A DNA stretch of 33,212 nt from Nitrospinota bacterium. Lineage in GTDB: Bacteria > JADFOP01 > DATKYB01. Positions 3,085 to 12,423 of the stretch are shown here, piece after piece. The notes under the pieces were generated by a model. The model made no database searches, was not told the origin of the DNA, and saw only the letters and a list, made by a program, of their open reading frames with translations. Position numbers and translations under genes: made by a program. The DNA is taken from positions 1-33,212 of the forward strand of contig DATKYB010000053.1 in NCBI GenBank assembly GCA_035528715.1, read 5' to 3'. Numbering within the stretch: the stretch's first letter is position 1; every line of letters begins with the position of its first letter.

Positions 3085-4038
3085 ATGAACGATATGAAAA
3101 GACATCTCAAGGTTGATAACGAGCTTATCATTGTATTCTTATTAGTAGTCATCATCGGATTAATCTACTTCCTCGTACCTCATCAGAAGGTATTCCTTAA
3201 TTTCTTCTATATCCCCGTTCTTTTAGGGTCATATCTCTTCGGAAAGAAACACGGAACATACTCTGCTTTTTTATCTGTTCTTATGGTCTTTTCTATAGCC
3301 TATTTTATCCCAGAGACATTCACAGATAAAAACAATATCAGTATGAGTCTCTCTAAGTGGTTGGATATTACGACATGGGGTTGTTTTCTTATCATCGTTG
3401 GCTACTTAATGGGTGCCCTTTATGAAAAAAAGGAGAAATATAACAGAGAGATCAAAAAGACATATCAGGGAATTATCACCATGCTCTCACTTATCTTAGA
3501 TTCTGTGGATCAATACACCCAGAACCACTCCATTCGTGTTGCGAAATATTCTGAAAAGATAGCAAAGGAGGCAGGGCTGTCGAACTCTGAGATTGAGGAT
3601 ATAAAAATCGCTTCCCTCCTTCATGACCTTGGGAAGATCGGTGTAAGCGCAGAGATTCTCCATAAGATAGGGAAGCTTTCAGACGAAGAGAAAAAAGAAA
3701 TAACCGGCCACACAGGAAATGCAAAAGATATATTAGAGCCCATTGGCGGGCGAGTGTTAAGAATTCTTCCCCTCATCATCAACCACCATGAAAGACAGGA
3801 TGGAAATGGCTATAATGGACTTTTAGGCGATTCTGTTCCCATGGGTGCCAAGATCATCGCTGTGGCAGATGTCTATGATGCCCTCACTGCTGATAGACCC
3901 TACAGAAAGGCCCTCTCACCCTTAGAGGTAAAGGAGGAGATTGTTAAAGGCTCGGGCACACACTTCGACCCAGAGGTTGTAAAGTATTTTGAGAATGTCT
4001 TCCCAACACTCGAGATAGAGGAGCCTGCCCTTACCTAA
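3085..4038 (+). CDS. Membrane-anchored HD-GYP domain protein (putative c-di-GMP phosphodiesterase, GYN variant)
   Basis: 317 residues. Residues about 13-33, 38-75 and 95-113 are hydrophobic and form an N-terminal membrane sensor of the short four-helix type. A charged linker (about 114-125) leads into an HD-GYP domain (about 128-312). Metal and catalytic landmarks are present: H148, the HD pair 180-181 with DLGKIG following, H209, HHE at 234-236, and D262 in ADVYDALTADRPYR. The signature loop reads DGNGYNG instead of DGxGYPxG, so the proline of GYP is asparagine at 244. HD-GYP proteins hydrolyse c-di-GMP to pGpG or GMP; whether this variant is active is uncertain. The gene converges on the last gene of a riboswitch-controlled pilin operon with only 22 bases between the two stops. 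No strong Shine-Dalgarno precedes ATG 3085; an in-frame ATG three codons later is an alternative. Confidence 0.9.
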   Translation: MNDMKRHLKVDNELIIVFLLVVIIGLIYFLVPHQKVFLNFFYIPVLLGSYLFGKKHGTYSAFLSVLMVFSIAYFIPETFTDKNNISMSLSKWLDITTWGCFLIIVGYLMGALYEKKEKYNREIKKTYQGIITMLSLILDSVDQYTQNHSIRVAKYSEKIAKEAGLSNSEIEDIKIASLLHDLGKIGVSAEILHKIGKLSDEEKKEITGHTGNAKDILEPIGGRVLRILPLIINHHERQDGNGYNGLLGDSVPMGAKIIAVADVYDALTADRPYRKALSPLEVKEEIVKGSGTHFDPEVVKYFENVFPTLEIEEPALT

Positions 4039-9518: not shown

Positions 9519-9556
9519 ATAAAAAAGCCTATTCCCTCTCGAAAGAATAGGCTTTT
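9519..9556 (-). terminator. Intrinsic terminator of the riboswitch expression platform
   Basis: On the minus strand a 12-bp perfect stem (AAAAGCCTATTC / GAATAGGCTTTT, at 9556-9545 and 9534-9523) with a 10-base loop is followed by a T-run. It sits between the aptamer and the fimT ribosome-binding site, as expected for a transcriptional riboswitch. CCTATTC of the 5' arm (9545-9551) can alternatively pair with GGATAGG of the aptamer (9609-9615), seven pairs including one G-U, giving a candidate antiterminator in the ligand-free state. Confidence 0.9.
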
Positions 9557-9561
9557 CATTT

Positions 9562-9646
9562 TTATATCAAGGCAACCCTGCTGCCCAAAAGGGCCAGTGG
9601 CTTTGCGTCCTATCCTTTCGGAGTAGTTTGCCTTTATCTGATATAA
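9562..9646 (-). promoter_or_regulatory. c-di-GMP-I (GEMM-I) riboswitch aptamer
   Basis: The minus strand shows the GEMM-I core in order: GGCAAAC (9633-9627), a P2-type stem closed by a GAAA tetraloop (CTACTCC-GAAA-GGATAG), GGACGCAAAGCC, a second hairpin (CTGGCCC-TTTT-GGGC-AG-CAG), and the closing GGGTTGCC. P1 is AAGGCAA with TTGCCTT, extended by TTATATCA with TGATATAA across a small bulge. The base two positions before the C of GGCAAAC (G20 in V. cholerae Vc2 numbering, A in the cGAMP-selective subclass) is G, so c-di-GMP is the predicted ligand. It controls the fimT-pilV-pilW-pilX operon; GEMM-I riboswitches upstream of pilus genes are known in other bacteria. Confidence 0.95.
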
Positions 9647-9666
9647 CTTCTTATTATAGTTATATC

Positions 9667-10557: not shown

Positions 10558-11781
10558 TTATTCATATTCATGCTTCTGTGCTATAAGCTGGGGCGGGATA
10601 TTTGTAGGAGGGTTATTTGCTAATTGACTGTTATAAATGATGTTTGAATTTCCACCGCCTGAAGTTGTGAAAATAGGATTTCCTAAACTATCATCAGCGG
10701 TAAAAGGTATATTGTCCGGACCATTGATATCAGCAATGATGATGGAACCTCTAACCGTACCGCTTCCACCTCCATGTCTTATCAAATTTCCCCGTCCCAC
10801 CACAAGTATCACACCATTATAACTAAAGTTTCCTCGCAAGGTCAGTGTTCCTGTAACAATCAATATCCCATAGCCGGTTCCAGGTCCAGTATTAAGGTCT
10901 CCATTGATATAGACAATGCTAGGTTCTTGCTCAGTCCCCAGATTAAAGCCAGTGTCAGATGTTGAGGTATAATCTGCAAATGCTGCCAGATTTTGAATCA
11001 TACTTTTTAATTGCTGAGGGTCATCCAGACCGGCCTGGCTTAGGGCCACAGGGTCTGCTACGACAGAAGGGCTCACACCGTTGCTTACTATCTGGTCGCA
11101 TCTGGGATTACAACCATTTCTTACAGAATTCTCTGCAGTCACATTCGACACCGTAACCGTTGGAACATTTGAGCCCCCTGCTGAATCATCCCCGCTGAAT
11201 TGGAATGCATTGCTATTACCAGGTTCAAAATATACATCTGGTCCCGGCATAACAATAGGACTTGGGGGAGAAAAAGGGAGAGAAAATTTTTTAACGATCC
11301 CCTTCACAACGGCCTTCGAATTTCCAGGCCCGTATCCAAAAGAGATGAGGTTTACTTTGCCATTTGTGTCATTGTTGTTCGTAGCTCCATCTGCTGCATC
11401 ATTTGTTAGATATACGGTATAGGAACAGTTTCCAATCGACTGATTAGATAAAAGAGGGATATCATCTCCAGGAAAGTTATTGATATTGGTACTGTCGACC
11501 AGCTGATTGTCTGTACCATCGGCATTCTTTAGCTCTGTATCAAAATTGAGACCAGCAAGAAAATCCCTTGCTCTTTCTACACCAGCCTCTGCAGCGTAGT
11601 AGGCCTGTGTATGATCGCGATAATTTATTGTTATCCGATTATCGATCAGGTTTGAAGTGATCCCCCATACACCTAAGATAGCTAGGGATGTCATGATCAT
11701 CAGCGAAGCGATAAGAGCCACTCCTCTTTGGTCTGAAAGGATCAGAAAAGACCTTCTCAGGATGTACAATAATCTTTTCAT
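10558..11781 (-). CDS. PilX-like minor pilin / pilus assembly protein (copy 4)
   Basis: 407 residues, same architecture as copies 1 and 3: helix QRGVALIASLMIMTSLAILG, YAAEAGVERARDFL, the Asp-rich loop TNDAADGATNNNDTN, PGPDVYFEPGNSNAF, a C-x3-C-DQ motif (GCNPRCDQ), and a C-terminal GVILVVGRGN / GSIIIADINGPDN block. It lies 12 bases after the second pilW and is the last gene of this two-gene cassette. Its 3' end faces the 3' end of the response regulator, with 91 bases between that hold no obvious terminator. Paralogue of the first cluster, presumably by duplication, but transcribed from a promoter without a riboswitch. Confidence 0.85.
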   Translation of the reverse strand: MKRLLYILRRSFLILSDQRGVALIASLMIMTSLAILGVWGITSNLIDNRITINYRDHTQAYYAAEAGVERARDFLAGLNFDTELKNADGTDNQLVDSTNINNFPGDDIPLLSNQSIGNCSYTVYLTNDAADGATNNNDTNGKVNLISFGYGPGNSKAVVKGIVKKFSLPFSPPSPIVMPGPDVYFEPGNSNAFQFSGDDSAGGSNVPTVTVSNVTAENSVRNGCNPRCDQIVSNGVSPSVVADPVALSQAGLDDPQQLKSMIQNLAAFADYTSTSDTGFNLGTEQEPSIVYINGDLNTGPGTGYGILIVTGTLTLRGNFSYNGVILVVGRGNLIRHGGGSGTVRGSIIIADINGPDNIPFTADDSLGNPIFTTSGGGNSNIIYNSQLANNPPTNIPPQLIAQKHEYE

Positions 11782-11793
11782 CTTTTTATCTCA

Positions 11794-12423
11794 TTAAGGT
11801 GAAAACCCAAGATTTCTTAGATTGACTTTTGATGTTAATGTTCTCGTTCTAAAGCCACTATTTTGGCTATAATAAGGGTCTGGGTTGCTTGCTCTTGATG
11901 TTATCGATATCTCTACGATCCGAACATTTGCTGCACTCACAGGGGATGGCAGGAGATTTCCATTCTCATCAAAGTATCGAAAGTTCAAGCTCTGGATATT
12001 GCTAACCAGAGGAAGGAGGTTATCATTTGTCGTACTTTTTCTTCTAATCACAAGATTATTTGCATCGTATCGATAGGTAATATCTTCGTTCGACTCACTT
12101 GCACCAATAACTCCATTCTCATTAATATCTGCTGTAAATGATAGGGAAGGGATCGCTTCATCAATGTTCGTTATCCCCATCCCCCCTGCCTCTGTGGGAT
12201 CGTATCCAGCCATTCTGATATCCCTTAACATGATATCCAGGGCAGCCCTTACATTCTCCTGCATCTCTACGATCTGATCCTGTGCCATATAGGTCCTGTG
12301 CTGGCTCAAAAATATATTAAATATCCCAACGAGAAGGATGCTGGTTACAGCCAGGGCAATCAGGAGCTCTATGAGGCTCAAGCCCCTCTCACTCCTCTTT
12401 ATCTCTGAAACAAAACTTCTCAA
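11794..12423 (-). CDS. pilW: PilW-like minor pilin, second copy
   Basis: 209 residues: prepilin leader ending at G14, then LSLIE with Glu +5, the helix LLIALAVTSILLVGIFNIFL, QHRTYMAQDQIVEMQENVRAALDIMLRDIRMAGYDP. The protein matches the first PilW nearly residue for residue over the N-terminal 90 positions and diverges mainly around 120-190. The start is TTG at 12423, preceded by GGGGTG; the same unusual TTG start is used in the first copy. fimT and pilV are not duplicated here, so this PilW-PilX pair would have to use FimT and PilV from the other operon or work as an alternative tip pair. Confidence 0.88.
   Translation of the reverse strand: MRSFVSEIKRSERGLSLIELLIALAVTSILLVGIFNIFLSQHRTYMAQDQIVEMQENVRAALDIMLRDIRMAGYDPTEAGGMGITNIDEAIPSLSFTADINENGVIGASESNEDITYRYDANNLVIRRKSTTNDNLLPLVSNIQSLNFRYFDENGNLLPSPVSAANVRIVEISITSRASNPDPYYSQNSGFRTRTLTSKVNLRNLGFSP

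Follow-up and report, generated by a model that had tools for sequence, protein, structure and literature searches.

A c-di-GMP riboswitch probably turns type IV pilus genes off at high signal in the bacterium whose DNA was analysed here. The element is encoded by the minus strand of the window (the whole 33,212-nt stretch of DNA that was analysed), directly upstream of a minor-pilin operon, and is likely to be a c-di-GMP-I transcriptional OFF switch that operates kinetically, with an antiterminator that runs through the P2 helix of the aptamer. Deployment of the P2 hairpin loop and strand as the holder of the terminator-open state would be an unusual use of the sensor. Accessible descriptions of GEMM-I switches have the 3' end of P1/P3 as the moving part and P2 as a stable scaffold. 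If the platform works as proposed, invasion of P2 through its tetraloop means that the scaffold itself is able to act as the switch, and the P2-invading platform provides a compact and testable strand-displacement design.

The riboswitch and its operon

A covariance-model search with Rfam located a GEMM-I (c-di-GMP-I) aptamer on the minus strand at 9641-9567, the sole match at the gathering threshold within the window. The best model was RF03167 (c-di-GMP-I-GGC; 62.5 bits, E 1.1e-12, cut-off 59), and the aptamer also passed the c-di-GMP-I model RF01051 (60.4 bits, cut-off 35), in agreement with the original prediction of a GEMM-I aptamer. P2 carries a GNRA loop (GAAA, 9619-9616) and P3 is short (GGCCC UUUU GGGCAG). 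The classical 11-nt tetraloop receptor (CTAAG...TATG) was not matched in this short P3, where a non-classical receptor is possible. Docking of the tetraloop as a protective step, although attractive, is not claimed, as no classical receptor is visible and lineage confounds the interpretation of its absence. Downstream of the aptamer an intrinsic terminator hairpin (9557-9522, minus strand; -17.9 kcal/mol) leads into UUUUUU (U-tract 9526-9521). Aptamer and terminator have no nucleotides in common and fold together in the full-length RNA.

The first gene of the operon (9504-9079, minus strand, as are all genes of the run) encodes a minor pilin of the GspH/FimT family (PF12019, 44.2 bits; N_methyl PF07963). 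It is followed by genes for a PilV/GspI-like prepilin-like protein (9074-8697; PF07963; TIGR02523 at 40.9 bits, below its cut-off), a PilW/GspJ-like prepilin-like protein (8696-8073; PF07963; NF007848 at 57.8 bits, below its cut-off) and a PilX N-terminal protein (8056-6809; PF14341, 47.9 bits). The spacing between these first four genes is 4, 0 and 16 nt. The fifth gene, which lies beyond a gap of 162 nt and is less surely part of the transcript, encodes a PilX N-terminal protein with DUF7305 (6646-5324); the run ends with another PilX N-terminal protein (5302-4061; PF14341, 34.8 bits). A possible -10 hexamer, TATAAT (9658-9653, minus strand), read directly from the DNA, would place the RNA start at ~9646, just 5' of P1; a consensus scan found no standard -35 at 16-18 nt from it. 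TTGACA (9695-9690, minus strand), also read directly, makes a weak case for a -35 hexamer, with only a poor -10 at 17-nt spacing; it was absent from the output of the consensus promoter scan, and no promoter is firmly placed.

An inverted repeat, GATATAAC...GTTATATC (9639-9666, minus strand), lies just 5' of the aptamer. The 3' half of this repeat extends over the 5' strand of P1 and, if transcribed, could compete with P1. Upstream of the riboswitch and outside its transcript, 10558-12423 of the minus strand encodes another PilX_N protein together with one that is prepilin-like. A gene that converges with the pilin operon (3085-4038, plus strand) codes for a membrane-anchored HD_5 (HD-GYP-like) protein, the motif of which, HHERQDGNGYN, has the GYP signature altered to GYN.

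Pairing of the terminator arm with P2

The original prediction paired GGATAGG of the aptamer (9615-9609) with CCTATTC of the terminator 5' arm (9551-9545) as a seven-pair antiterminator with one G-U. Both heptamers are present and complementary as claimed; the extent of the pairing was underestimated, its true length being 11-12 contiguous pairs that include the entire GAAA tetraloop. Eleven contiguous pairs are formed by GAAAGGAUAGG (9619-9609) with CCUAUUCUUUC (9551-9541), and pairing of 9620 with 9540 provides the twelfth. The aptamer half of the predicted antiterminator is CGAAAGGAUAGG (9620-9609), which consists of the closing C, the GAAA tetraloop and the P2 3' strand; the other half, which is indicated by both complementarity and folding energies, is the terminator 5' arm and loop, CCUAUUCUUUCG (9551-9540). 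The 12-nt complementarity contains a single G-U. When the terminator arm was dinucleotide-shuffled 1000 times, no shuffle reached the P2-site pairing (p=0.001), and apart from the P2 3' strand this arm had no significant alternative partner. At the window locus the shuffle test gave no signal for the aptamer 3' strand as partner (p=0.61-0.69), and an antiterminator with that strand, like the one in Cd1, the riboswitch of the Clostridioides difficile flagellar operon, was rejected.

Energies were followed along the growing transcript, in a trajectory that omits ligand and tertiary contacts. With 7 pairs the antiterminator stood at +5.3 kcal/mol relative to the aptamer; with 11 pairs the difference was -1.1 kcal/mol, and with 12 pairs it was -3.5 kcal/mol. 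Because seven pairs leave the antiterminator 5.3 kcal/mol worse, whereas 11-12 pairs make it better, it is the tetraloop pairs that pay for the opening of P2. The earlier proposal that the pairing blocks the terminator without ligand therefore stands with respect to the competing strands, but the seven pairs it named are energetically insufficient and those of the tetraloop are needed. The antiterminator was favoured at transcript lengths 104-116, while the aptamer together with the terminator wins from 117. In the full-length RNA the terminated state always has the lowest energy, which leaves only kinetic switching. On this energy model the ligand must keep P2 closed for ~13 nt of transcription, otherwise the polymerase escapes.

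In the mechanism that we propose the aptamer would be transcribed before the terminator. When c-di-GMP is bound, the P1/P2/P3 junction would be locked and P2 would remain closed, leaving the terminator 5' arm with only its own 3' arm, and transcription would stop ~20 nt before the GspH/FimT start codon. When no ligand is present, the emerging arm and loop would invade P2 at the end that faces the junction, base-pairing with its 3' strand and its GAAA tetraloop. The resulting antiterminator would keep the terminator open until RNA polymerase enters the minor-pilin operon. In Cd1 a mutation of the P2 tetraloop, A24-26U, abolished binding (PMC9262584), and pairing of the P2 loop with the terminator arm should therefore also exclude the ligand.

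Recurrence, ligand and genomic context

Loci with GEMM-I aptamers were collected through a pattern scan of public genomes and through whole-genome searches, and 115 of them had a strict terminator. P2-site pairing at p<0.01 was found at 2/3 loci of the genome itself, 13/19 loci of the phylum Aerophobota and 4/93 other loci. The first two groups taken together differ from the remainder (15/22 versus 4/93; Fisher p=2e-10); among all these loci, those found by the pattern scan over-represent GAAA loops and P2 helices whose basal pair is U-A. Assignment to Aerophobota is based on L051, the named copy of the G029 locus, and on a phylum search around G029. The genes behind the Aerophobota copies include those for sigma-54 activators, HD-domain, MshEN-domain and T2SSE-related proteins, and a subtilase. 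The P2 platform was not found (p=0.15) in the same-class relative L014, the only one with a GEMM-I aptamer among three genomes of the class. At two further loci, L232 and L260, from two genomes of one family, a terminator 5' arm with the sequence GCGUCC matches the conserved core, GGACGC, and part of the P2 3' strand, a platform related to that of the window that reaches into the universal core.

P2 and the terminator covary clearly, unlike the antiterminator helix alone, for which column covariation is weak (the observed score and percentage paired were equalled or exceeded in 24-47 of 500 shuffles). Much of the antiterminator complementarity is conserved sequence among related, non-independent loci. 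Column covariation was thus dropped as proof of the antiterminator, and was replaced by a permutation test in which the fit of each arm to its own P2 was compared with its fit to the P2 of related loci. For the 22 own and Aerophobota loci, which were unselected and which relatedness leaves less than fully independent, the cognate mean was -14.70 kcal/mol versus -12.56 kcal/mol for swapped partners (p=0.00014). For the 93 other loci the values were -6.95 and -6.64 kcal/mol, respectively (p=0.06).

These data bear on whether the terminator responds to the aptamer at all. It could be constitutive, or shield the operon from transcription coming from upstream, in which case the match to P2 would be incidental or derived from shared sequence motifs; the weak column covariation is consistent with this view, as is the recurrence across the surveyed loci of terminators with GCC/GGC ends before the U-tract. 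We consider such a role improbable, however, in light of the p=0.001 obtained per locus, the reappearance of the pairing in another riboswitch of this genome and across Aerophobota, and the co-adaptation of arm and P2, for which the 93 other GEMM-I loci display no comparable signal. The separate terminator, the P2 3' strand as its sole significant competitor and the reappearance of the OFF platform architecture in the genome and in Aerophobota uphold the original prediction with respect to the class of aptamer, the terminator, the strands that compete and the direction of switching (OFF).

In an alignment with Vc2 numbering the window aptamer displays the ligand-contact residues G20 (in AAAGGCAAAC), A47 (in GACGCAAAG) and C92 (in GUUGCC), the roles of which are taken from Bc1 and Vc2 (PMC11218506). 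G20 resides in the P1-P2 joining strand, and not in P1, where the c-di-GMP-type G had been placed. All three residues agree with those of c-di-GMP binders. That c-di-GMP-I-GGC is the top-scoring Rfam model might indicate a different nucleotide, either cGAMP or whatever ligand the GGC variant binds, with the same OFF switching. Such a ligand is quite unlikely in view of the pocket. Judged by the RF03167 consensus, from which the GGC criterion (G at the A47 equivalent) was read, the window aptamer passes on score (62.5 versus 59) but has A in place of the key G, and was not classified as a GGC variant. Riboswitches that bind cGAMP have A at position 20, whereas G20 is present in all three riboswitches of the genome, and membership of GEMM-Ib was rejected; selectivity at position 20 is, however, not absolute (PMC9262584). 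We infer that the ligand of the OFF switch is c-di-GMP.

The genome, the assembly of which is fragmented (152 contigs), holds two GEMM-I aptamers besides that of the window, on contigs C109 and C108. The C109 riboswitch is located 5' of a gene for a flagellar hook/rod-like protein (FlgE/F/G D1 domain), and its platform matches that of the window riboswitch: GAAAGGAUAGG faces CCUAUCCUUUA in 10 pairs (p=0.001), and the antiterminator is favoured at lengths 106-123. In the C108 riboswitch the 3' strand of P3/P1 of the aptamer doubles as the 5' arm of the terminator; aptamer and terminator are therefore mutually exclusive, and the platform is ON-type. Its pocket retains G20, A47 and C92, while the 21-46 pair is swapped (C-G for G-C). 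The first gene behind it encodes a FlgM-family anti-sigma-28 protein (PF04316, 40.4 bits), the riboswitch locus (L285:4360-4784) lying directly upstream. FliA and flagellins are present in the genome, as are two GGDEF proteins. Both GGDEF genes (L288:2495-4602, contig C74; L289:2417-3828, contig C130) are divergent from an adjoining FlgM-family gene; with the riboswitch-controlled copy, 3/3 FlgM-family matches are linked to c-di-GMP.

As the ON-type switch precedes the FlgM-like anti-sigma gene, the three riboswitches all predict less motility at high c-di-GMP. From the sequence we predict that high c-di-GMP leads to lower levels of minor pilins and of the flagellar part, and to a higher level of the flagellar anti-sigma factor, such that OFF and ON switches of one genome would point in the same physiological direction. 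These are concrete predictions on the control of pili and flagella by c-di-GMP in a rarely sampled bacterial lineage. On balance, we lean towards the view that this is a distinct, lineage-specific GEMM-I platform in which arm and loop complement the P2 GNRA loop and 3' strand and the antiterminator unzips P2. The platform would be reused for minor pilins, a flagellar rod/hook-like gene and sigma-54 activators, and with the ON-type GEMM-I that drives a FlgM-like gene in the same genome would constitute a two-sign motility circuit read from RNA.

Comparison with known GEMM-I switches

The window riboswitch resembles the c-di-GMP-I-GGC group (RF03167) in scoring above its gathering cut-off and in the short P3 shape common to both, and differs from it in the A found at the Vc2 A47 equivalent, where the consensus is G. 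With the ON switches Bc3-5 (Bacillus thuringiensis) and pilM (Geobacter metallireducens), in which the terminator uses the aptamer's own 3' strand (PMC4759541, PMC9262584), it shares the aptamer fold and an intrinsic terminator. That ligand binding prevents termination in the window as it does in these two is very unlikely: some GEMM-I riboswitches are ON and the third riboswitch of the genome, in front of the FlgM-like gene, has the matching anatomy, but the window terminator is separate from its aptamer and folds alongside it at full length, which rules out ON switching by overlap.

No description of a P2/tetraloop antiterminator was found in the accessible GEMM-I literature, a scope outside which key GEMM papers lie, and no priority is claimed. 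The predicted OFF switch is in several respects like Cd1, the OFF member that has been studied most, with a GEMM-I aptamer, a separate downstream intrinsic terminator, termination favoured by ligand (predicted in the window), kinetic competition with an antiterminator and motility genes under control. Of the Cd1-type OFF platform the window thus displays the separate terminator, but not an antiterminator formed with the aptamer 3' end. The Cd1 antiterminator includes the pairs G147-C87 and C148-G86, which involve the 3' end and pocket of the aptamer, and a formed P2 was observed in the full-length RNA (PMC9262584). The linker is shorter in the window, and the predicted antiterminator resides not on the aptamer 3' end but on the P2 3' strand and GNRA loop.
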